In this document: positions 3,001-16,439 of the stretch, one piece after another | How the letters are laid out: each line of letters opens with the position of its first letter | How positions within the stretch are numbered: the first letter of the stretch is position 1 | Assembly: GCA_039804165.1 (NCBI GenBank) | Contig: JBDRZZ010000008.1 | Location: 5,265 to 69,264 of the forward strand | DNA: 64,000 nt | Direction: 5' to 3' | From: a candidate division WOR-3 bacterium | Lineage (GTDB): Bacteria > Hydrothermota > UBA3072 | The notes under the pieces: generated by a model | The model's input: only the letters and a program-made list of their open reading frames with translations | Databases searched by the model: none | What the model was told of the DNA's origin: nothing | Translations under genes and position numbers: made by a program

Positions 3001-6000
3001 AAGTCTCTCGCCTTATGAGAGTGTTTCATTTGCTGATACGATAAGAGATACTGTTCCTCCTGGAGATTATATTGTATCTGGAGATGCTTATTCTAATTAT
3101 CCTCAGCACATTACTTCCGATTGGAAATCATTCACAGTTATTGGAGATAATGTTGCTTTACTTTTGAATTCTAATAAGGAAGAAGGTTTTGTTGGAGAGG
3201 AGTTCAGAATTAATCCTCTTACGATAAATCCACTTCCAGAGATAAAAGAGCCTTTACATTTAATCGTAAAAGGATATTTTGGAAGCCTTGATACAACTTA
3301 TCTTGATACGACTTTTATGCTTAACCCACAGTCCTTAGATTCATTCCCATTTGTGATTAGGCCGCAGGAACCTATAGTTATTCGGGCGGAACTTGCTCTT
3401 CCTTCTGGTGATACGCTTAGAAGGGAATTTATCCCTGTTGTGAAGAATACAAGACTTTTGTCTTTGCAGATTTTTGCTCCTGATGTTGTTGATTTATCAC
3501 CTTTTACTGCCAAAACAGAAATTTACAATTATTCCTTTAGTCCTCTTTCTTTAGAGGTTAAAAGGATATTTGGTGCTGATACTTTAATTAATTCATTAAC
3601 TCTTGGGCCCAAAGAGACTTATACTTTTGTTGATTCTTTCTCTACGGTGAGGTCTGATACTTTAAAGGTTATTGCGATAACTGGAGGAGAGAGTTTCACA
3701 AAGAAGAAATTCATTGATTGTGGAATAAAGGGTATAGTTCTTCTTGATTCTCTATTTGAGGTTTCTCCGGATTCTGTGAGGATGAACGGGATTGTGAGAA
3801 ATGAGGGTTTGTATCCTTTAAGCGGGAAGGTGCTTTTCTGTCTAATTGAAAGAACAAAAGGGCTTATAGCTCACAGCTTACAGCTCTCGGCAACAGGGTT
3901 CTCAGCCGAGAGACAACAGGTGAGGGCTGAGCCTTTCCCCACCACTCTATCAGCTCAACAGGTTGCGATTTCTTCGGTTGCACGAGTTGGGAAGGATTTG
4001 AGTCTCTCTGCGTTTATAAGCCAGCTCCAGAGAGCAGGTGTGGATACTTCTCTAACCACGATTTACTTACCTATGGGTAAAAGTGATACAGTTCCAATTG
4101 CTTTTAATAGACACAACCCAGGAAATTACGAATTGCTTGGTTTTCTCTTTGCGGAAACGACGCCGGAGAAATCTGTGATGTTGGATTCAAGTTCCTCAAT
4201 TGTTAATATTGTTGGTAATAATCAAGTTTTTGTTGATTCTATCTTCGTTTCTCCAACCTGTGATTCAACTGGTTCTGTGCTATTATGGGTTACTTTAAGT
4301 AATCGTTCTTATGCTCCATTTTCTGGGAATCTTATTGTAAGTTCTCCAATATGTTATTTTGATTCTCTTATTACTCTACCTATAAAGATGCAAGATACCA
4401 TTGTATTTTTCTTAAAAGAGCCAATTGATGAAGGAAGATATTACTTTACTGGGGCTCTATTAGAAGGGGGATTTTCTGTTAATTTAAAATCGCAAGTTCT
4501 TGAATTTCATCCGATATATCACTTTGATTCTTTACCTAATTTAGAGTTCTCTGTTCCTGATTCCGGGATGGTTGAGATTTCTATTAGTAATATTGGTAAT
4601 GGGAAAGGAGAAAGAACTGTTGCAGTTAATTTTGTAGATGTTTTAAACATAAATAGAGATGCGGAGATTAAACCGGGTTCTTCTGAGAAGTTTTCTGGGA
4701 GTTTCTATATTCCTGAAGATTTCCCTGGAGGAAAATACTGGGCGAGTGCTGAAATTTTGAAGAACTCCTATCCCGAAGTAGACACTTTATTCCCTGTTCA
4801 AGTAAATGGCATCCGAATTGAAGCAAGAGATTCTCTTGATAAGCCTGTTTATTCTCCAGAGGATACCGCAAAACTTTCTATAATTGTCAAAAATAACTCT
4901 CTATTTAGCGGAGAACTTCTTTCAATTGTTAGATATGGAGAACTTGAGCTTGATACAACTTTTATCCTTGGGGGGATGGAAAAAGGAGTTCTAAATAAAA
5001 CGAATAGGGACACTCTATATCTTGATGCCTCTGGCGTTTACTTAACTGACCCGATTGAACTTATCGGTTATGACAGTGTGACAATAACAAGGGATGGTTC
5101 AGACTCTCTCGTTGTTCAAATACGAACAGACTCGCTAATAGGAAAAGGAATATGGACAACTATTACAGATAGCATAACTTATCCCATTTCGAAGTGGTTG
5201 CAATTGAAAATTGAGAATAGGGAAGAAGAAACTCTATTTTTAAACTCTATAAATCTTGATTTTAAGCCTTCCGGTTCTTTAATTCTGGATTCATTCCCAT
5301 CCACAAGAAAAGTCCTTAGTTTTAATTTACCTGTTAACCGGAATGAGAAGAAACTTGGATGGGGGATTTACAATCCTTCTGGAAGGTCTCTTGTTCTTGA
5401 TGAGAGGTATGTGTATATTGCAGATTCACTTCTTACGATATACACGGATAAAAGTAGATACGAGATGCTTGACACTGTTCGGGCAACTCTTATAAAACAC
5501 TTCGCAGATACTTCTTACCTCTTTAATTATCGTGTTTACTTCTCACCAAAAGAGGAAATAAAAGATAGTTTCAAACTCAGAGATGATACAATGAGGTTTG
5601 AGTTTGTGATTCCAAATTGGACTCGGTCGGGGACATATACGATTGATTATCTGGTTTATAAGAATGGGCTCAAAGCTCAGAGCTTGCAGCTTTCGGGGAG
5701 AGGTCTTTCAGTTGACAGCTCACAGCTCTCAGCTTTAGGAGGTGGTAGATTCGAGACTCCTCTTGCGAAGCAATGGGTTTTAGGTAAGCCTCTTTTAAGT
5801 TCAAATGGCAAAGATGTTTTCCTCTCTGGAGAGCATCCATTCGATGTCAATGGGATAACGGTTTATTTCAAGAATGCAAAAATGGATACGAACTTCTATC
5901 ACAATGGAGAGATTGCTAAAGTCTGGATGGATATTTTCTCGGATATAGACCTTGCTGTCCATCTCAATATTTCCTCGACAGGTTCTTCTAAGATGGATAT

Positions 6001-7777
6001 TTCTCTATCTCTTAAGAAGGATATTCCGAACCATTTTGAATTCACCTATCCGATTGAGGGTTGTAAGAGAGGAACAAATGAATTGTATTTACATCTTGAG
6101 AAGGATTCGGTGAGTCTTGCAGGGACTGTTCTCCGTTTTGATGTTTATGTTGCGGACACGACTGCTCCAGTGATTTCTGTTCTAAAAGAGCCGAGCAACA
6201 CATATTCGAGTAATCGTTTCTATGAATTAATTGCCCGTATTTACGAACCTGAATTAACTGGAACTCCATTTACAGACACTCTCTACTATAGAATTGCTTC
6301 AAGTGGAGGAAGTTCCTGGAATGCGCTCTCTGCTCATTCAGTTAAGGGAGATACGAATAGATATCTAATTCCATCACATCCAAACGGGACTCACATTGAG
6401 TATCACTTGATTGCTCGGGATGAATTTGGGAATATTGCAAGATATCCTAAAGAAGGGGAGAGAGATTTCTGGGTTTTGTCTGCTCTAAAGCCGAGCTGGC
6501 AGAGTTTAACTTATTCCAATAAGCCTTCTGTTATTCTAAATTGGGATCTTCCAAGAGATCTTATTTATTATCATTGTGGATTACATTCTGATACGGTAAG
6601 CTTAAGCGATATAGAGTTTGCAACGAGATTCACTCCTCAATTTATACCTGCCAAGCTAAATCGGATTGGGATTGAGTTTATAGATGAAGGGTCCTTCATT
6701 ATTGATACTTTGAAAATTTCCCTCTATTATATTGGAGCTGATTTATTACCCGGTGTAAAAATAGATTCTTTTGTTTTTGTTGACTCTTTCTATAATGGTT
6801 ATAAGGAGATAGAGCTTCCCGGAATAGAGGTTCCAAAAGAAGGAATTTTTGTTGGGATAAAAGGTTCAAAGGATCTATATGGGATTTTTGATGGTTTTGG
6901 GGAAGGAAGTCATACGGTTAAAAGAAGTGAAAATTCGTGGGAGTTTAGAACGCCAGGAGAGCTTCTTATTAATGGAATGTTTTCTCATCCTGTTGGGAGT
7001 GAAGAGGAGAAAGTTGCTTCTCTTGTTTCTTTTGGTGTTTACCGTTCATCTGGCGGAATTTGGGAGAGAATAGCTTACAACTTAAAAGAGACTTCTTACA
7101 CGGATACAACTATCCAGGCTGATTCCAGATATTCATATAAAATAATGGGTTTATTCATAAATCCAGTTGATTCCTTCTTTTCCATAAGTGATGAGGTTTT
7201 TGTTGATCTTACTCCTCCTGAGCTTGATACTGTTTTAATCAATAAGGTTGGTGATGAGATATTAATTAAGGTATTTTTAGAGGATCCATCTGGGGTTGTT
7301 TTAGATTGTCTTGGTTATTTAGAAGGAGGTGTAGAGAAATTTGTTTTTGATACTCTTGATGATGGAGAGTATTTCTTTACTCTTAGCCTTACAGAAGATA
7401 CTTTGAGGTATTTCTTCTTTGCTGAAGATAAATCTTTATTGAGGAACAAGAAGAGGTTTCCTGAGATTGGTTATTATAAGTGGTGGGAGGGCTTATCTGG
7501 GATTACGGAAATTCCTGATTCCACCTATTTATTCAGGGTTAATACTGTTATAATGGGTGATTTAGATTTAAGGTATGCTCTTTCTAAGAAAGAAAGAGTT
7601 AGTATTTGTCTCTTTGACATCGCTGGTAGGAAAGCAAAAATTCTTGTGGATAGAGTGGAAGATCCTGGATATTATTCTATTCCCCTTAAGGCGTCTACAC
7701 TTCCTTCTGGGATTTATTTCCTTAAAATGGAAACAGAAGACTATAGAAAAACAGTGAAATTGGTAAGGATAAGATAA
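2..7777 (+). CDS. Giant secreted surface protein, 5' truncated by the window edge, with C-terminal sorting domain
   Basis: The frame is open from base 2 through 2591 codons. The first visible Met is not followed by a signal peptide, so the gene almost certainly starts upstream of the window. Residues 1-600 and 950-2150 are a long series of beta-rich, Ig/CARDB-like segments, with recurring 'DTV', 'YS..D.' and hydrophobic strands. Residues about 635-915 differ and read like an NHL-type beta-propeller, with blades such as 'DNLWVM', 'GVIYIS', 'NILVLD' and 'GVIYLAD'. The last 85 residues have the layout of a type IX (Por) sorting domain: 'ICLFDIAGRK', 'LPSGIYFLKME' and a basic end 'KTVKLVRIR'. This suggests export across the outer membrane and surface anchoring, probably as an adhesin or structural protein. 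Two short repeat-encoded insertions interrupt the domain series. Exact function is unknown. Confidence 0.8.
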   Translation: MEVISDKREVLIGDTVNFQIKIKNKGEYPFPGKLIIGVDEVEGGWKVIDSILGVTIPSDSEIIVEYTRSFYISSDVYFGLYQNQQVFFSRFFRNTALRRSKSVGVISKPFSLFIYTDKSNYVLGVDSVNYKIEVENRLPKASYPFVNLYILQDYFKHIIWSDTLELLAKEKKEIKGAFSLLDFDIIEGKKKLCCELFFRDSLWNFASRSFEVTYPQVKCSFILPDSFQYGGSNLFSVRLSASGWLPPGKLLVRGVSFSDSIIYLDSIMIENTIDTDTTLIFNYQPELWSTRSALKAQYRYINRYIKRTAFLEFYPPIVSSFRPVYSDYQEGFIPEDTAVFKAWVSLKGDLYGVPLEFSLWSDYLGKDTLRDTIILNPTTGRTITLKDFVGLEIPADTMIPYSYRWKYLDRKGESIGKLQYFVQSPEAVLHWPLNDTFSIGASIPITFTNSIKSPSRVDIKSVSLYGGDAVGNIVENFDGPGVVEIPGEGSYTFNITVPQWKSGQYYLSVEASIVEGRGVNLNSYPYGCPIYIDGLTANIQVSTSKKYYGQGDEIPFSSVLENGGYGWNGAETLKVARMKDTLESFSIWDLTDTGSVETFGLIPDSSGGYILAPEYTLECVANLPYMPAEDSFLVVALAVDEYDNLWVMSASCNGNKIFLRKWDRPFGNLLAEFSVSIPMIGWNIDMEVHQGVIYISSPSSGVVYRLNANSGEIIGYIHPPGGGFFMAIGGIEVKDNGNILVLDKWTRILWEFSSSGDSISTFVLPVEFEDPYGYGFGLEYKDGVIYLADRKKIITIEGTSVDSFGLANYANYMRISLSDNGKLAATLCGEGCGLNIFSPQREFEVGGGVFVQDFCGDITFYKNYIVREETDEEHVVVNDTIVNIIYYNNLYLYREFGKDNGMLKVSEFPDAPWKYKFHNYRNIDIPNSGSISYQVLDQNATYPSDDNLLPLSSMIGSDCLLPIYITMEGNYENSPVFYDLLLNLKTFVSDSVIVKNTYPLSLSPYESVSFADTIRDTVPPGDYIVSGDAYSNYPQHITSDWKSFTVIGDNVALLLNSNKEEGFVGEEFRINPLTINPLPEIKEPLHLIVKGYFGSLDTTYLDTTFMLNPQSLDSFPFVIRPQEPIVIRAELALPSGDTLRREFIPVVKNTRLLSLQIFAPDVVDLSPFTAKTEIYNYSFSPLSLEVKRIFGADTLINSLTLGPKETYTFVDSFSTVRSDTLKVIAITGGESFTKKKFIDCGIKGIVLLDSLFEVSPDSVRMNGIVRNEGLYPLSGKVLFCLIERTKGLIAHSLQLSATGFSAERQQVRAEPFPTTLSAQQVAISSVARVGKDLSLSAFISQLQRAGVDTSLTTIYLPMGKSDTVPIAFNRHNPGNYELLGFLFAETTPEKSVMLDSSSSIVNIVGNNQVFVDSIFVSPTCDSTGSVLLWVTLSNRSYAPFSGNLIVSSPICYFDSLITLPIKMQDTIVFFLKEPIDEGRYYFTGALLEGGFSVNLKSQVLEFHPIYHFDSLPNLEFSVPDSGMVEISISNIGNGKGERTVAVNFVDVLNINRDAEIKPGSSEKFSGSFYIPEDFPGGKYWASAEILKNSYPEVDTLFPVQVNGIRIEARDSLDKPVYSPEDTAKLSIIVKNNSLFSGELLSIVRYGELELDTTFILGGMEKGVLNKTNRDTLYLDASGVYLTDPIELIGYDSVTITRDGSDSLVVQIRTDSLIGKGIWTTITDSITYPISKWLQLKIENREEETLFLNSINLDFKPSGSLILDSFPSTRKVLSFNLPVNRNEKKLGWGIYNPSGRSLVLDERYVYIADSLLTIYTDKSRYEMLDTVRATLIKHFADTSYLFNYRVYFSPKEEIKDSFKLRDDTMRFEFVIPNWTRSGTYTIDYLVYKNGLKAQSLQLSGRGLSVDSSQLSALGGGRFETPLAKQWVLGKPLLSSNGKDVFLSGEHPFDVNGITVYFKNAKMDTNFYHNGEIAKVWMDIFSDIDLAVHLNISSTGSSKMDISLSLKKDIPNHFEFTYPIEGCKRGTNELYLHLEKDSVSLAGTVLRFDVYVADTTAPVISVLKEPSNTYSSNRFYELIARIYEPELTGTPFTDTLYYRIASSGGSSWNALSAHSVKGDTNRYLIPSHPNGTHIEYHLIARDEFGNIARYPKEGERDFWVLSALKPSWQSLTYSNKPSVILNWDLPRDLIYYHCGLHSDTVSLSDIEFATRFTPQFIPAKLNRIGIEFIDEGSFIIDTLKISLYYIGADLLPGVKIDSFVFVDSFYNGYKEIELPGIEVPKEGIFVGIKGSKDLYGIFDGFGEGSHTVKRSENSWEFRTPGELLINGMFSHPVGSEEEKVASLVSFGVYRSSGGIWERIAYNLKETSYTDTTIQADSRYSYKIMGLFINPVDSFFSISDEVFVDLTPPELDTVLINKVGDEILIKVFLEDPSGVVLDCLGYLEGGVEKFVFDTLDDGEYFFTLSLTEDTLRYFFFAEDKSLLRNKKRFPEIGYYKWWEGLSGITEIPDSTYLFRVNTVIMGDLDLRYALSKKERVSICLFDIAGRKAKILVDRVEDPGYYSIPLKASTLPSGIYFLKMETEDYRKTVKLVRIR
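3868..3888 (+). repeat. Heptamer repeat tract inside the giant surface protein gene, copy 1
   Basis: Three direct heptamers lie head to tail: AGCTCAC, AGCTTAC, AGCTCTC. Three heptamers make 21 bases, so the frame is kept; the tract encodes a short 'HSLQLSA' stretch. Low-complexity Q/S/A-rich coding sequence follows to about 4050. It is unlike the domain series on either side, so the insertion may be longer than the tract. A related tract lies at 5674-5737. Confidence 0.7.
5674..5737 (+). repeat. Heptamer repeat tract inside the giant surface protein gene, copy 2
   Basis: Two groups of AGCTYNC-type heptamers are present: AGCTCAG, AGCTTGC, AGCTTTC at 5674-5694, and AGCTCAC, AGCTCTC, AGCTTTA at 5717-5737. 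They encode 'QSLQLSG' and 'SSQLSAL', close to the peptide of the tract at 3868. The flanking 'GGCT(T/C)A' is also shared between copies. This points to a dispersed repeat that entered the gene twice without breaking the frame. Confidence 0.7.
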
Positions 7778-7819: not shown

Positions 7820-7848
7820 GGAACTAAATTAGAGTTAAATAGGTCTAA
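7820..7848 (+). promoter_or_regulatory. Candidate ECF-sigma promoter for the stress/efflux block
   Basis: GGAACT at 7820-7825 and GTCTAA at 7843-7848 are separated by 17 bases. This matches the known RpoE/ECF pattern of an 'AAC' -35 box and a 'GTC/TCTAA' -10 box. The predicted start is about 12 bases before the lipoprotein ATG and still includes its AGGAGG ribosome site. The second sigma gene of the window has a very similar -35 region at 19890-19895 (minus strand). Confidence 0.55.
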
Positions 7849-7865
7849 TCCCAAAAGGAGGAAAA

Positions 7866-8375
7866 ATGATAAGACGATTAATTTTTTTATTCTTTTCTTC
7901 TTTGATTATATTTTTGGGATGTAAAAAACAATCACAAGAGAAACCACCATTTCCCCATTTTGAAGGGAAAAGAGAGGCTCCATACCTATTTAAATATCCA
8001 AGAATTGACAGGATGGTAGAATGGCTTAATTTATCAAAAGAACAGATTGATTCTTTGGAAAAGATAAGAAGGGAATTCTTTGAAAAAAGTTTTGAAAGAA
8101 TAAAAGAGGATAGAGAAAGAGAAGAAATTATCAAGAAAAAAATTGTAGAGATGGTGAAAAAGGAGAAATTATCAAAAGAGGAAATTCTTAATTTTATGAA
8201 TGAATTAAATTCAATAAGAGAAAAGACAAGAATGAGGTGCGATAGTTTGGCTGCCGAGAAAATAGCTCGAGCGCATTCAATCTTGACAAAAGAACAAAAG
8301 GAAGAATTGGCAAAAAGAATAGAGGAATTCAAGCCTAAAAGAGCGTTTCGAAGATTCCAACCAGAGAAAGAGTAG
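7866..8375 (+). CDS. Spy/CpxP/CnrX-like periplasmic lipoprotein
   Basis: The 169-residue product begins with a lipoprotein signal peptide ending in the lipobox 'FLGC' (Cys19), so it should be lipid-anchored facing the periplasm. The mature part is almost wholly charged alpha-helix (residues 50-155) and ends with 'LTKEQKEEL' (140-148), the LTxxQ-type motif of the Spy/CpxP/ZraP/CnrX superfamily. Members are periplasmic chaperones or metal sensors that form hooked four-helix dimers. Met123, Cys125 and His137 could bind metal, but this is not shown. The start follows a strong AGGAGG. The ECF sigma gene begins 3 bases after the stop, so they are co-transcribed, which suggests a sensor role. Confidence 0.7.
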   Translation: MIRRLIFLFFSSLIIFLGCKKQSQEKPPFPHFEGKREAPYLFKYPRIDRMVEWLNLSKEQIDSLEKIRREFFEKSFERIKEDREREEIIKKKIVEMVKKEKLSKEEILNFMNELNSIREKTRMRCDSLAAEKIARAHSILTKEQKEELAKRIEEFKPKRAFRRFQPEKE

Positions 8376-8378
8376 GTT

Positions 8379-8891
8379 ATGGATCCAGAGGCTTTTGCCT
8401 CTATTGTTGAAGAGACAAAGAGTTTTGTTTTAAAAGCAATTAGAGAAAATTTGTTTTCGGAATATTATTACGCTATAGACGACGTTGTTCAAGAAACATA
8501 TATTAGGGCTTATAAAAGCCTTATAAAAAATAAATTTAGGAAAGAGTCAAAGCTCTCTTCTTGGTTATATACAATAGCTAAAAACGAATCTATAAGAATG
8601 AATAGGAAACTTTCGTCTACGGAAAGGAGAAGAGAAAAGTATGCCGAGAGGACTCTTTTGAATTTTGAGAGTAGTGTGGAAGAGAAAATTGAGAAAAAAG
8701 AGTTATTTGAAATACTTAATAAGGCAATTGGGGAACTTCCCGGAGATTTTAAAGAAGTAATGAATTTGTATATAAGAGGTTTTACAGAAAAGGAAATGGT
8801 AAAAATTCTTTCTCTTCCAAAAGGGACAATAAAGTCAAGAATACATAGAGGAAAGGCTAAATTGAAAGAATTACTTAAGGAGGAGTTGTAA
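8379..8891 (+). CDS. RNA polymerase ECF-type sigma factor
   Basis: At 170 residues this has the normal ECF length. Region 2 spans about residues 15-85, with 'DVVQETYIRAYKSL' and the promoter-melting helix 'LSSWLYTIAKNESIRMNRK'. Region 4 spans about 108-165, with the helix-turn-helix 'FTEKEMVKILSLPKGTIKSRIHRGKAKL'. It would redirect RNA polymerase to stress promoters. Between a Spy-like lipoprotein and a small membrane protein, it probably controls this block, including its own ECF-like promoter at 7820. Its stop overlaps the next start by one base (TAATG), indicating translational coupling. Confidence 0.9.
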   Translation: MDPEAFASIVEETKSFVLKAIRENLFSEYYYAIDDVVQETYIRAYKSLIKNKFRKESKLSSWLYTIAKNESIRMNRKLSSTERRREKYAERTLLNFESSVEEKIEKKELFEILNKAIGELPGDFKEVMNLYIRGFTEKEMVKILSLPKGTIKSRIHRGKAKLKELLKEEL

Positions 8892-9187
8892 TGTATAAAT
8901 TGGATGAGGAAATAGAGAAAAGATTAAAAAGCAATTCTTGGAGTAAAGAGATTGCTGGAGGGGTTCTTTCTCTTATTGCTAAAAGGAGAAAGAAAAAAAT
9001 TGCTTTTACAGGTTCTTTATTTCTATGGTTTTTTCTCTTTTTCGTTATTGGATTGAATATTTCTAAGGAGAGAATTAGAAAAGAAAGTTTTGGTAATTTT
9101 ATCTCAACCGTGACCGAAAGCATCTATCCAGATTTAATTCCAGAAGATATAGAAGAATTTATCTCATATTCTTTTAGCGAAGAATAA
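8891..9187 (+). CDS. Small single-span membrane protein, candidate anti-sigma factor
   Basis: This 98-residue protein has about 35 charged N-terminal residues, one membrane span (about 36-54, 'AFTGSLFLWFFLFFVIGLNI') and an acidic C-terminal tail of about 44 residues. By the positive-inside rule the N-terminus is cytoplasmic. No zinc-finger anti-sigma motif (HxxxCxxC) is present. Size, topology and coupling to the sigma gene resemble CnrY (about 95 residues), which holds the ECF factor CnrH at the membrane. No sequence family was recognised; the anti-sigma role is inferred from position and shape. Confidence 0.6.
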   Translation: MYKLDEEIEKRLKSNSWSKEIAGGVLSLIAKRRKKKIAFTGSLFLWFFLFFVIGLNISKERIRKESFGNFISTVTESIYPDLIPEDIEEFISYSFSEE

Positions 9188-9205
9188 GAAAATTGCTTTT
9201 AAAAT

Positions 9206-9234
9206 GCAACCTTTTTGGGTCTTAGAGGGTCATA
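9206..9234 (+). promoter_or_regulatory. Possible second ECF-type promoter before the second Spy-like gene
   Basis: GCAACC at 9206-9211 and GTCATA at 9229-9234 are 17 bases apart, the same spacing as the candidate at 7820. Both boxes fit the AAC/GTC core of ECF promoters but are weaker matches than the first site. The next gene starts at 9257, after a TGGAGG ribosome site. Confidence 0.35.
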
Positions 9235-9256
9235 TTAAGTAAAATGGAGGTAAATA

Positions 9257-9679
9257 ATGAAAAGAATATTGAAGTTTTTTTCAGTTCTGGTTTGTTTTTT
9301 ACTACCTTTCCAAGCAAAATCTGAAGGGAAAATAGAGGAGTTTTCTTCTCTTAAGCTGAGCGAAGATGTTATTCAAAAGATAAAGGAAGTGAAAGTAAAA
9401 TATAAAGAGAAAATACTTGAATTAAAAAATGAAATTGAAAAGAAAATTTTAGAAATTGAAAAGCTCCTACTTGAAAAAAATCCAAATTTTGATAAAATAT
9501 TATCGCTTGAAGATGAAATAGGAGAATTGAGGCAGAAAGTAAGAAGAAAATTGTTGGAAGAGAAGATTGAGATATATAAAATTATTCCGGATGAGAAAAA
9601 AGAAGAGGCAAAAAATTTTCTTTTCCGATTTTTAAGGGAAAGGCAAATGGGCAAAGAAGAATGCCCAAAAAAGCGATAA
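9257..9679 (+). CDS. Second Spy-like periplasmic helical protein
   Basis: The product has 140 residues. A cleavable signal peptide is clear (residues 1-21, 'ILKFFSVLVCFLLPFQAKS'). The rest is a charged helical protein with 'LKLSEDVIQKIKEVKVKYKEKILELKNEIEKK' and a second long helix pair, as in Spy/CpxP-type chaperones. Unlike the first Spy-like protein of this block it has no lipobox, so it should be soluble in the periplasm. It precedes the tolC-macA-macB genes and may deliver or sense misfolded protein, metal or an efflux substrate. A perfect 17-bp hairpin follows the stop. Confidence 0.6.
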   Translation: MKRILKFFSVLVCFLLPFQAKSEGKIEEFSSLKLSEDVIQKIKEVKVKYKEKILELKNEIEKKILEIEKLLLEKNPNFDKILSLEDEIGELRQKVRRKLLEEKIEIYKIIPDEKKEEAKNFLFRFLRERQMGKEECPKKR

Positions 9680-9705
9680 AGTATTTTCATATTTCACCCT
9701 CCTTG

Positions 9706-9756
9706 ACTCCTAAGGGGTGGTTATTCAGAGATTTAAAACCACCCCTTAGGAGTTTA
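9706..9756 (+). terminator. Perfect 17-bp hairpin between the Spy-like gene and tolC: terminator or attenuator
   Basis: The arms at 9706-9722 and 9737-9753 are exact reverse complements over 17 bases, with a 14-base loop and a short TTT after the stem. It can end transcription of the stress genes or attenuate readthrough into the efflux genes. The 3' arm contains AGGAG at 9748-9752, the only Shine-Dalgarno-like sequence before the tolC ATG at 9767. The folded stem would hide it. Confidence 0.75.
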
Positions 9757-9766
9757 TAAGTTAACA

Positions 9767-11056
9767 ATGAATATAATAATTTTATTCATAGTTTTTTCTA
9801 TAAATACCTCTCGAGAAGGAGATACTCTTTCTATAGATGATTGTATTGAAATTGCTCTTAAAAACTCTCCTTTAATGGAAGTTGCGAAAGGGAGTTTGAA
9901 AAAAAGTGAACTTGGAATAGGTGATGCAAGGGCTACACTTCTTCCAGATGTTGAACTTAAGGGTGGATATTATCTAAATAAAACTTTTAATAAAATTGAA
10001 TGGAACGAAAACCATTATGATCTTAAAATTTTGGCTTCTATTCAACCTTTTAATAGTGGAAGAACTTATCTTGGAATAGAAAGGGCGGTTTCTAATTTTC
10101 ATTCTGCAGAGGAAAGCTTCCGAGATATAAAGATGAGCCTTATTTTAGAAGTTATAAGAAGATATTATGCTCTTCTTAGAGCTCTAAGAATCTTAGATCT
10201 TAGAGAAAGAGCTTTGGAACAGAAGCAGAAACAACTTGATTTCTCGAAGGCTCAGTTTAGACTTGGTTTGGTTCCGAGAGCGGATACTTTAAAGGCAAGG
10301 GTTTCTTTGGAAGGAGCGAAGCTTAACTTGCAAGAGGCAAGTGGGGAACTTTTAATAAGAAAAATAGAGCTTAATGAAATAATGGGTCTAAAGTTGGATT
10401 CTTCTATTATAATTGAGGATGTTGAAATAAAGGAACCTGAAATTCCAGATTTTGATAGCATTTTGGAAGTTGCTTATAGGAAAAGACCTGATTTGAAAAG
10501 GCAAGAATTTTTAATTTCTGCAAGTAAATGTGATCTTTTGGTTTCAAAAATTAATATGACACCCACTTTAACTGTAATTGGTGGGTATAATATTTATGCA
10601 GAAAAATTTTTGTTCCAGGGGGTTCCTTTAAATAAAGATAATTTGGAAGATAATTCGGATTGGAGTGTGGGATTAAATTTAAGTTTCCCAATATTTGATG
10701 GAGGCAAAAACTATAGGGCTATTAGTAGAGCGAGTATTGAATTTAACAATGCAAAGCTTGAGTATGAAAATTTGAAAAGAGAGGTAGAACTGGAGGTAAA
10801 AAGAGCTTATATTAATTTGGAGAATACAAAAAAGAAGATAGAGTTATCCCAAAGGGAAGTTATAAGTGCGAGAGAAAGTTATGAGGCTGCTATTGGGAGA
10901 TATAAAAATGGACTTGCTCCAATAACTGAAGTGATTGATGCTGAAGTTCTCCTTACAGAGGCAGAAGTAAATCTCGTTGAGTCGAAATACGAATTTCTTG
11001 AAGCTAACGCTTTGCTTAAAAAAGCTATGGGAGTTCTTTATGAGGAGGAAGAATGA
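9767..11056 (+). CDS. TolC-family outer membrane efflux protein
   Basis: The 429-residue product has a short N-terminal hydrophobic segment and 'LSIDDCIEIALKNSPLMEVAKG', the classic start of TolC/OEP proteins. Two OEP repeats follow, each with long helices and 'R..L..G' turns: 'AQFRLGLVPRADTLKARVSL' near residue 160 and 'RYKNGLAPITEVIDAEVLL' near 380. It would form the trimeric outer-membrane channel of the tripartite pump encoded with the next two genes. The only ribosome site lies 14 bases upstream inside a hairpin. The stop overlaps the next ATG by 4 bases (ATGA). Confidence 0.9.
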   Translation: MNIIILFIVFSINTSREGDTLSIDDCIEIALKNSPLMEVAKGSLKKSELGIGDARATLLPDVELKGGYYLNKTFNKIEWNENHYDLKILASIQPFNSGRTYLGIERAVSNFHSAEESFRDIKMSLILEVIRRYYALLRALRILDLRERALEQKQKQLDFSKAQFRLGLVPRADTLKARVSLEGAKLNLQEASGELLIRKIELNEIMGLKLDSSIIIEDVEIKEPEIPDFDSILEVAYRKRPDLKRQEFLISASKCDLLVSKINMTPTLTVIGGYNIYAEKFLFQGVPLNKDNLEDNSDWSVGLNLSFPIFDGGKNYRAISRASIEFNNAKLEYENLKREVELEVKRAYINLENTKKKIELSQREVISARESYEAAIGRYKNGLAPITEVIDAEVLLTEAEVNLVESKYEFLEANALLKKAMGVLYEEEE

Positions 11057-12225
11057 TAAAAAAGAAGAAAAAATACATTTTTATTAGTGGGGCTATTGTT
11101 TTACTATTGGTTATTGGGATTTTTTTTAGGACTGTTAAAGGAAAGAAGAAGAATCCATTTGCCGAAAGAATTGTTCAAGTTAGAAAAGATAATATTGTTA
11201 AAAAGGTTACAGAGAGTGGGAAGGTAGAGCCTGTGACTTCTGTAAATGTAAAATCTGCTCTTGCTGGGGAGGTGATAAGATTATTTGTGGAGGAAGGCGA
11301 TAAGGTAAAAATAGGACAGAAATTAGCTTTGATTCGACCTCAACCGGAAGAAGCTCAAAAGGTAGCTCAGATAAAAGCATCTATAAAGAGTAAAAAATTA
11401 GATTTGGAAGAAGCTGAAAGAAATTTAAAAAGAAAAGAAACTCTTTATGAAGAAGGTTTTATCGCTGCTTGGGATGTTGAAGATGCAAAGAAACAATACG
11501 AAAACTGTAAAATTCAGCTTGAACTTGCTATAAGACAACTTTGGGTTGTTCTTGGGGGAAATATAGAAGTTGGAGATGTGGAGTCTCTTGAGGTTGATAA
11601 TATTACTCTTACCTCCTCAATTAATGGGACTGTTACAAGTATAAATGTGGAAGAAGGAGAGATGATAACCTCGGGAACTCAAGCAATTGGAGGTGGAGGG
11701 ACTACTATTATGACAATTTCCGATTTAAGTGAAATGATTGTAAAAGTTAATATAAATGAAGTGGATATAGGATATCTTGCAAAGGGACAAAATGTTAGGA
11801 TAGGATTTGACGCTATTAAAGGTGTAATTTATAAGGGTAAGGTAAAAAAGATTTCACCTTCAGGGATTGAAAGCCAAAATCTTGTTGTTTATCCCGTTGA
11901 GGTGGAGATTTTAAATCCTGATGGAAGAATTCGCCCTGGAATGACGGCAGATCTTGATATAATTGTTGGAGAGGCTAAGAGCGTTCTTTGTATTCCTAAA
12001 GAGGCTATTTTAAAAGACAATGGGAGAACAATGGTTCTTTTACGGAGAGGAGGAAAGATTACACCAAAACCGGTTGTTACAGGTTTAAGTGATGAGATTA
12101 GGATAGAAATAAAGGGTGGCCTTAAGGAAGGAGATACATTATTAGTTCCGTTAGAAAAGGAGCCTTTTGGAAAAGAAGGTAGGCCTCAAATTGGTGGCGG
12201 AAGAATGATGCCTCCAAGATTATAA
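11053..12225 (+). CDS. MacA/HlyD-like periplasmic adaptor of an ABC efflux pump
   Basis: At 390 residues it matches membrane-fusion proteins. One N-terminal membrane anchor is present (about 8-26). A biotinyl-lipoyl half-motif follows ('VNVKSALAGEVIRLFVEEGDKVKIGQKLALI'), then a helical hairpin (about 105-165), the second lipoyl half ('LTSSINGTVTSINVEEGEMI') and beta-barrel domains with 'VVYPVEVEILNPDGRIRPGMTADLDI'. It links the inner-membrane MacB-like transporter to TolC. Gly/Pro/Met-rich residues end the protein. It is translationally coupled to tolC and 4 bases from the MacB-like gene. Confidence 0.9.
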   Translation: MIKKKKKYIFISGAIVLLLVIGIFFRTVKGKKKNPFAERIVQVRKDNIVKKVTESGKVEPVTSVNVKSALAGEVIRLFVEEGDKVKIGQKLALIRPQPEEAQKVAQIKASIKSKKLDLEEAERNLKRKETLYEEGFIAAWDVEDAKKQYENCKIQLELAIRQLWVVLGGNIEVGDVESLEVDNITLTSSINGTVTSINVEEGEMITSGTQAIGGGGTTIMTISDLSEMIVKVNINEVDIGYLAKGQNVRIGFDAIKGVIYKGKVKKISPSGIESQNLVVYPVEVEILNPDGRIRPGMTADLDIIVGEAKSVLCIPKEAILKDNGRTMVLLRRGGKITPKPVVTGLSDEIRIEIKGGLKEGDTLLVPLEKEPFGKEGRPQIGGGRMMPPRL

Positions 12226-12229
12226 AAAT

Positions 12230-14227
12230 ATGGAGTTGATTAAATTATTAGATATTACTAAGGTATATAATATAGGAAACTTAGAAGTTCCTGTTCTTTT
12301 AGGTATTTCTCTTGAGGTGCATAACGGAGAGTTTTTAGCTATTCTTGGCCCATCTGGTTCTGGGAAGACAACCCTTATGGATATAATTGGATGTTTATCT
12401 AAACCAACTTCTGGATGTTATTTTTTGGAAGGGGAGGATGTTAGTGAATTAAGCGAGGTTGATCTATCTATTATAAGGAAGAAGAAGATAGGATTTGTTT
12501 TCCAAAGTTTTAATCTTATCCCAAGAATGAGCGCAATAGACAATGTGGAACTGCCTCTTTTATATTCAGGAGTAGAGGAAGAAGAGAGGAAAGAAAGAGC
12601 GATGAATGCTCTTATTAAGGTGGGTCTTTCACATCGTGCATATCATTATCCCAATGAACTTTCAGGAGGAGAACAACAAAGAGTTGCTATTGCAAGGGCT
12701 ATAGTAAATAATCCTTCAATAATACTTGCAGATGAGCCTACAGGAAATCTTGATTCTAAAACAGGAAAAGAAATTATGGCTCTTTTTGAAGAACTTCACA
12801 AAGAGGGCGGGACTATCATAATGGTTACTCACGATTCAACAGTTGCCAAATATGCAGAAAGAAATCTTAAGATAAAAGATGGAAAGATTGAAAAAGAAGA
12901 GATAAAAAAGAGGGTAAGAAAAAGAGAAAATCCTAAGAAGATAGAGGAAAAAAGGGGAGATAGGAGCATTCTTGGAAGCATTATCTCAGGTTTTGTTGCA
13001 GGGTATAGAGGACTTTTGGCTAATAAACTCCGTTCTTTTCTTACAGTTCTCGGGATAATTATAGGGGTTGGAGCGGTTATTGGGGTTATGGGCATTGGAG
13101 AAGGAGCAAAAAGAAGTATTACTACTCAAATAGAAAAATTAGGGTCAAACATTATAAGCATCCATTACCGGAGACCACAAACTAAAGAGGAAGCTCTCTT
13201 GTGGCAAGGAAGATCTAAAGGTCTTACTTATCAAGATGCTCTTGCTCTTAAAGAGGAATTAGACTTCATTTACGATGTTGAGCCTGAGGTTAGAGCTACT
13301 ATTACGGCTAAATATAAGGATAAAGATTGGGAGACAAATATTGTTGGAACTCTTCCCTCTTATCAATCCATAAATAATCACTATGTTAAAGAGGGTCGTT
13401 TTTTTACAGAAGATGAATTAAGGTCTTGGACAAAGGTTTGTGTTATAGGGAAGACAATTAAAGATGAATTATTTGAGGAGGAAGATCCAATTGGTAAGGA
13501 GATAAAGATAAGTAATATGCGTTTCACAGTGATTGGGGTTTTAGAAGAAAAAGGCTCTATTGGATGGAATAATTTTGATGATAGGATAATTATTCCCCTT
13601 TTTACTGCCCAAAAAAGAATTACAGGGGAAGATGATATTGTGAGGGAGATTCAAGTCCAGACGAAAGGGAGCATCCCTTCAAAAGACTACGAAGAAAAAG
13701 TTAAGGATTTTCTTCTTAAAAGGCACAATCAGGTTGAGGACTTTAGAATAATGAATAGAGAAGAATTCAAACAGACAATAGAACAAACCGCAAAGACTTT
13801 TAAAATTATGCTTTCTGGGATTGCTGCAATATCTCTTATCGTTGGAGGAATTGGTATAATGAACATAATGCTTGTTTCTGTTACAGAAAGAACAAGGGAA
13901 ATTGGAATAAGAAAGGCAATAGGAGCAAAGAGATTAGATATTTTAATTCAGTTCTTAATTGAATCAGTAATAGTATCTTTAAGTGGGGGAATTATTGGAA
14001 TTATTTTGGGGATTATTTTCGCCACCACTTTAGGGAATATGATAGTTGGAGCTGGACCAATCACTCCTGGTCCGAGGTTTCTAAGTGAAGGTGGTAAGTC
14101 AGTTGTTACTCCCGGTTCTATTTTGCTTGCATTCTTTTTCGCAATTGTTGTGGGAATTTTTTTTGGAATATATCCTGCAAATAAAGCCTCAAAGATGGAT
14201 CCAGCTCAGGCTCTTAGATATGAGTGA
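12230..14227 (+). CDS. MacB-like ABC transporter, ATPase fused to permease
   Basis: Residues 1-220 are an ABC ATPase with Walker A 'GPSGSGKTT', signature 'LSGGEQQR', Walker B 'IILADEPTGNLD' and switch 'VTHD'. A charged linker rich in K/R/E follows. Next come a first membrane helix ('LRSFLTVLGIIIGVGAVIGVMGIGEGA'), a MacB periplasmic core (about 290-510) and an FtsX-type three-helix permease at the C-terminus, including 'TREIGIRKAIGAKRLDIL'. This is the complete MacB architecture at usual length (665 residues). MacB pumps do not cross the inner membrane with substrate but push periplasmic substrates through TolC. Its stop is 3 bases from the converging hydrolase gene. Confidence 0.92.
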   Translation: MELIKLLDITKVYNIGNLEVPVLLGISLEVHNGEFLAILGPSGSGKTTLMDIIGCLSKPTSGCYFLEGEDVSELSEVDLSIIRKKKIGFVFQSFNLIPRMSAIDNVELPLLYSGVEEEERKERAMNALIKVGLSHRAYHYPNELSGGEQQRVAIARAIVNNPSIILADEPTGNLDSKTGKEIMALFEELHKEGGTIIMVTHDSTVAKYAERNLKIKDGKIEKEEIKKRVRKRENPKKIEEKRGDRSILGSIISGFVAGYRGLLANKLRSFLTVLGIIIGVGAVIGVMGIGEGAKRSITTQIEKLGSNIISIHYRRPQTKEEALLWQGRSKGLTYQDALALKEELDFIYDVEPEVRATITAKYKDKDWETNIVGTLPSYQSINNHYVKEGRFFTEDELRSWTKVCVIGKTIKDELFEEEDPIGKEIKISNMRFTVIGVLEEKGSIGWNNFDDRIIIPLFTAQKRITGEDDIVREIQVQTKGSIPSKDYEEKVKDFLLKRHNQVEDFRIMNREEFKQTIEQTAKTFKIMLSGIAAISLIVGGIGIMNIMLVSVTERTREIGIRKAIGAKRLDILIQFLIESVIVSLSGGIIGIILGIIFATTLGNMIVGAGPITPGPRFLSEGGKSVVTPGSILLAFFFAIVVGIFFGIYPANKASKMDPAQALRYE

Positions 14228-14230
14228 TTT

Positions 14231-14968
14231 TTATTTAATCCTTAAATCTATTTTTTCATCCTTTAGTAAATTTGAAATTTCAGGGATGAATTTGTCATCT
14301 CGATGATATAAATATAATACCTTTGGTTTAAAAGATTTTACTGCATCGGCGACCATTTGAGGACTCATTGTATATGGCAGATTCATTGGAAGGATTGCAG
14401 CATATATATCCTTTAAAGCTTTCATTTCTGGTGTGTTTTCTGTATCTCCTGCAACATATATTTTTTTATCTCCAAAGGTGATTACATATCCATTACCAAT
14501 TCCTTTTGGGTGAAATGGTTCTCCATTTTCTCTTTTGTTTATGATGTTGTAAGCTGGAAGAACTTCTATTGGGAATCCATTTAAGGTATCTATATCCCCA
14601 TTTTTCATAACAGTTCCATCTTTAATTTTTTCTTGGCATCTCTCTGTTAATATGAGCACTGTTTCCTTTGTCCTTATCGCTTTTATAGCCTCTGGGTCAA
14701 AATGGTCCCAATGTTCATGAGTGATTAAGATTAAGTCTCCTTTAGGCAATTTGGTGTAATCTGCCTCTTTTAGTGTTGGATCAATATGGATGACTTTTTT
14801 GTTGAATTCAAAAAATAAAGATGCATGACCCACAAAAGTAATTTTTACTTCCCCTTCTTTTGTTTTAATTGTATCTGTGGAAAATTTTTTTAATGGCTTT
14901 TCTTCGGCCAGAAGAGATACTCCAATAAAAATAAGAAAAGAAAGTATTTTTAAGAATTTTATAACCAT
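14231..14968 (-). CDS. Exported metallo-beta-lactamase-fold hydrolase (UlaG/YtkL-like)
   Basis: I place the start at 14968, which gives 245 residues and puts GGAGGG 9 bases upstream; ATGs at 14974 and 14998 are also in frame. A signal peptide is clear (residues 1-21). The metal site is 'THEHWDHFD', with His84, His86, Asp88 and His89, preceded by 'ITFVGHASLFFEF'. Further ligands are plausible in 'VAGDTENTPE' and the late 'YLYHRDD'. This is the lactamase_B_2/B_3 group, often annotated as MBL-fold metal-dependent hydrolase. An exported version is less common than cytosolic ones. It follows the radical SAM gene and is probably co-transcribed; the substrate is unknown. Confidence 0.8.
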   Translation of the reverse strand: MVIKFLKILSFLIFIGVSLLAEEKPLKKFSTDTIKTKEGEVKITFVGHASLFFEFNKKVIHIDPTLKEADYTKLPKGDLILITHEHWDHFDPEAIKAIRTKETVLILTERCQEKIKDGTVMKNGDIDTLNGFPIEVLPAYNIINKRENGEPFHPKGIGNGYVITFGDKKIYVAGDTENTPEMKALKDIYAAILPMNLPYTMSPQMVADAVKSFKPKVLYLYHRDDKFIPEISNLLKDEKIDLRIK

Positions 14969-14984
14969 TATCATTTTCCCTCCT

Positions 14985-16439
14985 TTAAATTTCAACACTA
15001 ACTTTAGATTTATCTTTTAATTTTTCAGAAAGCTCTTTAAGAAGTCCTTTATTATAAATGCATCCCGGATCAGGAGCTTTTAAGTCTCCAAAATACTGAA
15101 ACGCTCTTGCTCTACAACCTCCACAAACGGTGGCTTCTTCTTCAGAACAATTTGCACAATTTACGTCTTCCCTTTTCTTTAATACTTTCATTAGTGGATG
15201 CTCATTCCATAATTCTTCAATTGTTTGATTTTTTAAATTCCCAATGGTAAGATCGGGCATATAAACACAAGGGGTAAATCTTCCATCAGGCTGTATTGCA
15301 GCGTAGGCTCTTCCTGCTCCGCATCCACCTACTACATCAGCAATGGCGCCTAACTCTTTAGATTTCAAATCTGCATAATGAGCAAGAATTAAGGAACAGG
15401 ATTCGTTTCTCCTACAGAAAGCTCCAAAAGTAGGATCTGTTGTGGCAACTATGTGTTTTCCTCTATCAAGTTGTTCATACATTAATTTATGAAGTTCTTC
15501 TCTTTCCTCTGGAGTTGGATCGTTTTTAAAATCACCTCTACCCACTGGGATGTAATTATAAACTACGACCTTATAAGCACCAAGCTCCTCCCTTAGTTTG
15601 AATATCCCTTTAATCTCATTATGATTCTCTTTCATGTGGGTGTAGGCAATACAAGTTGTAACTCCTGCATCTATAAGATTCTTAATCCCTTTTATTGCTC
15701 TTTCCCACATTCCAGGGATTCCTCTTATTTTGTCGTGTTTTTCTGGAGAGGCTCCATCAATGGAGACTTGAACGTAACCTATTTCAAGTTCTGCTATCTT
15801 CTTTGCCATATTTCTGTCTATAAGGGTTCCATTTGTTGCAATAGATAAATAGAGTCCTTTTTCTTTCGCCTTTTTAGCAACCTCCCAGAAATCTTTATCT
15901 ATAAGAGGTTCTCCCCCAGAGAAGAAAAGGGATGGAATATTTCTTTCTCCAATCTTTTCAACTATTTCTAAACGTTCCGAAAGGGTGAGCTCTTCTTTCT
16001 TGTTTTTTTCTCTTAAATGAATTGCACTCTGATAACAATGCTTACAAAGTAGATTACATTTATTTGTAAAGTTCCATACTAACATAACTGGATCGGCAAA
16101 TGGCTGAGGAGTTTTAAATCCATATTTGTCAAGGGATTCTAAGGCATTGGCAAATATTTTCCTAATGGTTATTTGTTGAAGACTTTTCTTGAATTCCTCT
16201 TCAGAAGTTCCAAAAGATCTTCTTACAACATCCAGTAATTTAATAAGAGGAAAATATTTAATTTTCTCTGAGTTGCTTAAAGAGTTATTACAGTATTTGT
16301 CTATTATAACCTCAAATAAATATTTTCCATTTTCTTTTTTTAAAGCAGTTGAAATAATTCTTCTTGAAACCCTTGAGTTAAGGGTTTTATTTAATCTTAT
16401 AATATCAAACTGCCTTTTTGAAATAACCCAAAGACTCAT
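14985..16439 (-). CDS. Radical SAM/SPASM enzyme
   Basis: The 484-residue product has the radical SAM cluster CxxxCxxC at Cys128, Cys132 and Cys135 ('CNLLCKHCYQ'), the SAM-binding 'FFSGGEPLI', and a C-terminal SPASM region (about 370-465) with many cysteines ending in 'VCGGCRARAFQYFGDL..PDPGC'. That ending resembles the heme-pathway AhbC/AhbD/NirJ group and related peptide maturases. About 110 N-terminal residues before the core are unassigned. No short precursor-peptide gene was found beside it. It has its own promoter (16496-16523) and GGAGGG ribosome site, with an operator-like palindrome near the start point. The substrate cannot be named from sequence. Confidence 0.85.
   Translation of the reverse strand: MSLWVISKRQFDIIRLNKTLNSRVSRRIISTALKKENGKYLFEVIIDKYCNNSLSNSEKIKYFPLIKLLDVVRRSFGTSEEEFKKSLQQITIRKIFANALESLDKYGFKTPQPFADPVMLVWNFTNKCNLLCKHCYQSAIHLREKNKKEELTLSERLEIVEKIGERNIPSLFFSGGEPLIDKDFWEVAKKAKEKGLYLSIATNGTLIDRNMAKKIAELEIGYVQVSIDGASPEKHDKIRGIPGMWERAIKGIKNLIDAGVTTCIAYTHMKENHNEIKGIFKLREELGAYKVVVYNYIPVGRGDFKNDPTPEEREELHKLMYEQLDRGKHIVATTDPTFGAFCRRNESCSLILAHYADLKSKELGAIADVVGGCGAGRAYAAIQPDGRFTPCVYMPDLTIGNLKNQTIEELWNEHPLMKVLKKREDVNCANCSEEEATVCGGCRARAFQYFGDLKAPDPGCIYNKGLLKELSEKLKDKSKVSVEI

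Follow-up and report, generated by a model that had tools for sequence, protein, structure and literature searches.

The window analysed here is a stretch of 64,000 nucleotides (nt) from the genome (G000) of a candidate division WOR-3 bacterium, a name now placed by NCBI under Caldifarciminota. It carries, all on the + strand, a run of seven genes in which an extracytoplasmic function (ECF) sigma factor and two Spy-like proteins precede a MacAB-TolC-type efflux pump. The run begins with Spy1 (7866-8375; 169 amino acids (aa)), a lipoprotein of the Spy/CnrX fold with the lipobox FLGC (Cys19), and continues with the ECF sigma factor (8379-8891; 170 aa), a 98-aa protein with a single predicted membrane span (8891-9187), which is a candidate minimal anti-sigma factor, and Spy2 (9257-9679; 140 aa), a secreted Spy/ZraP/CpxP-like protein. 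The pump genes follow: a TolC-family outer-membrane channel (9767-11056), a MacA-like periplasmic adaptor (11053-12225) and a MacB-like ATP-binding cassette (ABC) ATPase/permease (12230-14227). Open reading frame check and family searches recovered every gene named in the initial annotation, on the strand and in the layout it had given. The tight spacing it had described holds for most of the run, and the start of the 98-aa gene overlaps the stop codon of the sigma gene by one base; exceptions are a gap of 69 nt before Spy2, which contains a promoter-like element, and a gap of 87 nt before tolC, which contains a strong hairpin.

The phylum was searched across 147 genomes. The sister species of the same genus (G127; contig JAFGHJ010000023.1, labelled candidate division WOR-3) carries all seven genes in identical order, with protein identities of 46% (Spy1), 66% (sigma), 51% (98-aa protein) and 55% (Spy2). 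In G012, a genome of another family, a comparable run comprises sigma, a zf-HC2-like anti-sigma factor and Spy, followed by TolC, MacA and MacB that are 46%, 57% and 62% identical to those of the window; it also includes a fragment of a lipoprotein family described below. Since an orthologous pump lies behind sigma, anti-sigma and Spy in G012, the linkage of cassette and pump recurs. Homologs of the window-type TolC (E<=1e-60) are present in only 7 of the 147 genomes, and two families, f1 and f9, have an ECF/anti-sigma/Spy cassette before this pump, while f37 has it in part. Conservation of gene order in relatives, which the initial annotation had proposed as a check, is thus borne out by the identical order in G127 and the related order in G012, and on these sequence comparisons the order of the seven genes is not a product of chance.

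The pump displays the composition of a MacAB-TolC tripartite system: an OEP channel (6e-62), an HlyD-type adaptor (HlyD_D23 1.7e-19, TIGR01730 4e-48, MacA PRK11578 1.7e-35) and a MacB protein (PRK10535 4.5e-164) combining ABC_tran (5e-33), MacB_PCD (5e-48) and FtsX (4e-22) domains. For the pump proteins and the sigma factor alike, one or more of the libraries gave matches exceeding the curated cut-offs. The sigma factor consists of regions 2 and 4 only (Pfam Sigma70_r2 3.7e-10, r4_2 1.7e-8) and belongs to the ECF (group 4) sigma factors (NCBIfam sigma70-ECF 8.7e-24; TIGR02937 84 bits, cut-off 42.9). Its nearest solved structure is SigW (5wuq, E 6.6e-19), and it is closer to the SigW and RpoE structures than to CnrH (4cxf, E 7.5e-5), with which it shares 25% identity. 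Within the phylum, the sigma subgroup is private to the window species and G127 (338-360 bits versus 73 bits for the next best protein). A scan of contigs with the sigma profile returned the sister contig and a single further match, in BMS3Bbin03 (L048), which was unrelated and was rejected.

Single-sequence Pfam matches of the two Spy proteins remain below the cut-offs (LTXXQ E 0.049; Metal_resist E 0.002), and searches of PDB sequences that started from the two orthologs alone found no match for Spy1, Spy2 or the 98-aa protein. Profiles including relatives match Spy (3oeo) with E 5.9e-10 for Spy1 and 8.4e-9 for Spy2; the Spy2 profile matches ZraP (5.2e-8), and CpxP and VirG-like chains are matched by such profiles as well. 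Spy1 (35.8 bits) and Spy2 are both picked up by a profile built from WOR-3 Spy proteins; Spy2 is 31-33% identical to the second Spy of G125 and G129, two genomes of the window's family. The AlphaFold2 model of Spy1, which contains an LTxxQ-type segment (LTKEQ), has a lipoprotein signal, then a linker without order and a set of four helices, and its top PDB matches are Spy (3o39, Z 9.4) and CnrX (Z 9.1). As helical bundles score high in general, this fold match is supporting evidence and not decisive. Taken together, profile homology and, for Spy1, the predicted four-helix fold assign both proteins to the Spy/CpxP/ZraP/CnrX superfamily.

The metal ligands of CnrX, which we take to be H42, H46, E63, H119 and M123 (M123 and E63 are also named in PDB titles), align with I, V, R, K and A of Spy1, that is, none of the five is kept. 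These positions are not conserved between Spy1 of the window species and that of G127; the position of Met123 is Ala in the former and Met in the latter, and Spy1 of the window has only two His residues. In CnrX, Met123 is needed for Ni/Co signalling (PMC7689651).

The 98-aa protein has one clear span (residues 37-55), preceded by about 36 cytoplasmic residues; the residues RRK lie before the span, and the cytoplasmic side is basic. Comparison with G127 reveals two conserved motifs, W-S-x-E-I-A-G-x-V in the cytoplasmic part and ISTVTESI-x-P-x-x-IPED, and the periplasmic tail is strongly conserved between both species. The protein has no family match in Pfam or NCBIfam and no PDB sequence match at E<1, and homology to CnrY is undetectable (hhalign probability 0.2%). 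It also lacks the zinc motif H-x3-C-x2-C of class I anti-sigma domains (ASDI), which is present in the zinc-finger-type proteins of three other loci (L133, L145, L161); the initial annotation had likewise seen no known anti-sigma motif in it. A 98-aa-like match in G146, located in the tilS region and interrupted by three stops, was rejected as chance. The slot of the 98-aa gene is occupied by a zinc-finger-type anti-sigma factor in G012 and G144. The 98-aa protein is probably a minimal anti-sigma factor with putative sigma binding. Class II anti-sigma factors such as CnrY contact sigma regions 4 and 2 by two helices (PMC7406223), and the size of the 98-aa protein fits such a predicted mode.

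Of 20 Spy loci sampled in the phylum, 16 have a sigma and/or an anti-sigma gene beside Spy, the usual order being sigma, zinc-finger anti-sigma, anchored Spy and second Spy. The WOR-3 zf-HC2 cassettes (G012, G144, G067 and others) resemble the window in the adjacency of sigma, anti-sigma and one or two Spy genes, and that of G012 shares the orthologous TolC-MacA-MacB genes with it. In these cassettes the anti-sigma factor is a zinc-finger protein of about 160-180 aa and Spy is usually anchored at its N-terminus, whereas the window departs from this pattern on three counts: the anti-sigma slot holds a 98-aa protein that lacks a zinc motif, a lipoprotein Spy comes first, and the sigma factor is of a different, private ECF subgroup. 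Two genomes of the window's family (G125, G129; L120, L121) display the order sigma, 110-aa single-span protein, anchored Spy and second Spy. This 110-aa protein, with YLSGEL near its N-terminus and no zinc motif, occupies the same slot and is another candidate for an anti-sigma factor free of zinc. At another locus (L116, in G064), two ECF/zinc anti-sigma/Spy cassettes lie side by side.

ECF promoters usually consist of a GGAAC-type -35 and a GTC-type -10 element. Alignment of the upstream regions of the window species and G127 reveals GGAAC, 17 nt and GGTC-N2-AT before Spy1 and Spy2 alike, and the spacer length of 17 nt is shared by both sites in both species. The first site, P1 (7820-7849, + strand), is located upstream of Spy1, sigma and the 98-aa gene and is an exact match, GGAAC-N17-GGTCTAAT (GGAACCGATACGTATTTAACAGGGTCTTAT in G127); the second, P2 (9206-9235, + strand), is located upstream of Spy2 and has one mismatch, GCAAC-N17-GGTCATAT (GGAACCGATGCAAAGTTCGTTAGGTCATAT at the equivalent place in G127). 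Allowing for at most one mismatch, the pattern is found four times in the window, P1 and P2 included, versus 0.64 expected from shuffling. P1 and P2 are conserved elements and predicted promoters of the ECF type. In the genome G000, P1 and C1:198015 are the only exact matches to the pattern, and most one-mismatch matches in both genomes look like background (in G000, 26 real versus 16 in the reversed control).

The site at C1:198015 lies 8-23 nt before possible start codons of a lipoprotein gene. The lipoprotein encoded there (G000 C1:198015-198919; L041 1501-2408; L143) has a Met/Gly/Pro-rich tail (MGGGMPPGGGMHGGGMPP) and no Pfam match. Relatives are present in 9 of the 147 genomes, the window's own counted. 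In G144 the gene is part of a run of sigma, zf-HC2 anti-sigma, Spy, lipoprotein, TolC, MacA and MacB; in G067 it follows TolC, MacA, MacB, sigma, anti-sigma and Spy; in G145 it lies between Spy and an orthologous TolC that is 46% identical to that of the window; and in G094 it heads a TolC-MacA-MacB run. This repeated linkage to MacAB-TolC operons in WOR-3 may point to a possible new family of pump-associated lipoproteins. The promoter search was blind to operon context, yet it picked a lipoprotein linked to ECF, Spy and MacAB genes, and therefore the match is unlikely to be due to chance, though it is a single site. In G127, an exact GGAACC-N16-GGTCGTAT is located directly upstream of a DUF4382/CarboxypepD_reg lipoprotein gene (L049 685-1530; G127 C12:58122), which is a candidate for a further target of the same sigma factor. 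Another match in G127 (C43:60284) was not used, there being no clear target start downstream. In other families, the regions before the sigma genes yielded no GGAAC-type site, with L108 as possible exception, and hence those sigma factors probably use other promoters.

The hairpin between Spy2 and tolC (9706-9753, + strand) has perfect arms of 17 base pairs, a loop of 14 nt and a z-score of -5.6. Its sequence is present as a single copy in the genome, and G127 keeps the core of the stem with compensatory changes. As there is no U-tract, it may be an attenuator or a processing site. The Rfam models that it matched were those of eukaryotic miRNAs, with scores far under the gathering threshold, and these matches were rejected. 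Strong hairpins of unrelated sequence are located right after the last Spy gene at three other loci (L161 9114-9247, L133 7387-7489, L106 1172-1265), a recurrence that may be due simply to the abundance of such structures.

The initial annotation had compared the locus with CnrYXH of Cupriavidus metallidurans, where cnrY (95 aa), cnrX and cnrH are followed by cnrCBA (pMOL28, NC_007972.2). Both loci encode a short single-span protein of anti-sigma type (95 and 98 aa), a Spy-fold periplasmic protein and an ECF sigma factor, followed in one direction by outer-membrane factor, adaptor and pump. The differences are substantial, however. CnrCBA is a pump of the resistance-nodulation-division (RND) type and that of the window is of the MacB-type ABC class; one periplasmic protein, CnrX, stands against two Spy proteins; CnrX is anchored in the inner membrane and carries five Ni/Co ligands, whereas Spy1 is a lipoprotein with none of them; the order is Y-X-H in one case and Spy1-sigma-98aa-Spy2 in the other; and neither the 98-aa protein, which lacks CnrY homology, nor the sigma factor is close to its counterpart. 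Because the metal ligands are replaced, the pump is of ABC type and the anti-sigma candidate is unrelated in sequence, the term CnrYXH-like is valid for architecture and logic, and not for membership, descent or metal specificity. Of that comparison the layout therefore stands and metal sensing is not supported; likewise, the proposed joining of an ABC-type tripartite pump to a cassette with two periplasmic Spy proteins is upheld by layout, conserved order and ECF-type promoters, though without a CnrX metal site in Spy1. By family membership the pump corresponds to MacA, MacB and TolC of E. coli, where, in contrast, tolC and macAB are at separate places and lack an ECF/Spy cassette. A closer functional precedent than CnrYXH may be cirYZ-spy of Phocaeicola vulgatus, in which a Spy-like gene shares its transcript with an ECF sigma/anti-sigma pair, the sigma factor once released turns on both its own locus and spy, and induction occurs during colitis; no tripartite pump is among the described targets (PMC13114119).

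Based on this dataset, we consider it likely that the locus is a self-amplifying envelope-stress circuit of the ECF/anti-sigma/Spy kind that switches on a MacAB-TolC exporter. This prediction is built on the seven-gene order kept in G127, the conservation of P1 and P2, the relatives of the third site's lipoprotein in ECF/Spy/MacAB runs, the position of the pump in G012, the association of Spy with sigma and anti-sigma genes across the phylum, the Spy fold of Spy1, and the topology of the 98-aa protein, with one span and a basic cytoplasmic side. At rest, the short cytoplasmic helical part of the 98-aa membrane protein would hold the sigma factor. A change in the state of the envelope, for instance misfolded protein, a toxic amphiphile or possibly metal, would be perceived by one or both Spy proteins, which would pass the signal to the 98-aa protein at its conserved periplasmic tail. 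The released sigma factor would transcribe from GGAAC-N17-GGTC promoters, which are conserved as sequence: P1 would yield more Spy1, sigma and anti-sigma, P2 would yield Spy2 and, by presumed read-through over the hairpin, the pump, and the third site would drive the lipoprotein with the Met/Gly-rich tail elsewhere in the genome. The pump would export the offending compound, and the Spy proteins may protect the envelope or reset the system. The logic would be that of CnrYXH-CBA with an ABC-type pump and no CnrX metal site.

Several observations weigh against this circuit. Library searches recognised no anti-sigma motif in the 98-aa protein, the phylum genomes contain no relative of it beyond the window species and G127, its AlphaFold2 model is poor (predicted local distance difference test score 63) and can be read for helicity only, and its binding of the sigma factor is inferred. 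The lack of anti-sigma homology and of the zinc motif would favour the 98-aa protein being a small accessory of the pump or of Spy, with sigma activity set in another way. We regard this as decidedly unlikely, given that its start codon overlaps the sigma stop, that zf-HC2 anti-sigma factors fill the same slot in cognate cassettes, and that a single span with a basic cytoplasmic stretch is what membrane anti-sigma factors should have. The third promoter site is a single match, and its lipoprotein gene is absent from G127. With respect to the pump, the window sequence contains no GGAAC-GGTC site before tolC, the strong hairpin there could be a terminator, which would leave the pump outside the regulon, and G140 and G141 carry the pump without an adjoining cassette. 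Comparable hairpins are also present in the co-directional gaps of the window (two of eight with z below -5), and their frequency in such gaps weakens the idea of a special conserved element at the boundary of sensor and pump genes. The locus might then consist of two independent neighbours, an ECF/Spy module ending at the hairpin and a MacAB-TolC operon with another promoter. Against this separation stand the order preserved in G127, the orthologous pump directly downstream of sigma, anti-sigma and Spy in a different family (G012) and the related arrangements in G144, G145 and G067, and it appears unlikely to us.

A genuine CnrYXH-type metal circuit, in which Spy1 binds Ni/Co or another metal and the pump exports it, would share the parts list, the Spy/CnrX fold and the attached pump, and the Met-rich tail of the third predicted target could bind Cu or Ag. 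The replacement of the CnrX ligands in Spy1 at positions that vary between the two species, the scarcity of His in this protein and the undetectable CnrY homology render it highly improbable; moreover, we know of no MacB-type pump established as a metal exporter. A variant of the proposed envelope-stress circuit concerns the signalling step: the Spy proteins may be chaperone outputs, and the 98-aa protein itself may be the sensor, cut by regulated proteolysis like RseA. Both Spy genes lie under a predicted sigma promoter, similar to E. coli Spy as an output of Cpx and Bae, the 98-aa protein has a strongly conserved periplasmic tail, and in Phocaeicola, spy forms one transcript with cirYZ and is induced on sigma release (PMC13114119). 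On the other hand, CnrX as a real sensor is co-transcribed with its sigma factor as well, and the first Spy elsewhere in the phylum is membrane-anchored beside the anti-sigma gene, which is the layout of CnrX. We consider this variant possible, if somewhat doubtful.

In the surroundings of the run, a 2591-aa protein (window 2-7777) shows weak similarity at its C-terminus to a type IX secretion-like sorting domain (Por_Secre_tail, 24.6 bits, which is under the cut-off), and a Radical SAM/SPASM protein and a metallo-beta-lactamase-fold protein (14231-16439, - strand) are convergent with the pump operon.

ECF/anti-sigma/Spy cassettes recur in the phylum, and a cassette of this kind is known experimentally from Phocaeicola, cirYZ-spy (PMC13114119). 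A search of the open-access literature found no description of an ECF/Spy/MacB cassette, nor of ECF sigma factors in WOR-3. We tentatively hypothesize, as a scenario that is quite possible but not the probable one, that this genus evolved a minimal membrane anti-sigma factor, which replaced the zinc-finger anti-sigma factor of a phylum-typical ECF/Spy cassette, that the Spy sensor became a lipoprotein, and that control of the same MacAB-TolC pump was kept. If true, a CnrY-type anti-sigma factor would have evolved convergently outside Proteobacteria, and an ECF/Spy circuit would drive an ABC-type tripartite pump. The locus suggests that modules of ECF sigma factor and Spy-fold protein may be a general means of coupling periplasmic sensing to tripartite pumps, both ABC and RND, and that the anti-sigma part may be exchangeable for a very small protein. 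For a phylum in which, to our knowledge, there is no genetics, the locus offers a concrete regulon prediction of three promoter sites, one of them in trans. The 98-aa protein and the zinc-finger anti-sigma factor before an orthologous pump would provide a natural comparison of the minimum of protein that an anti-sigma factor needs.

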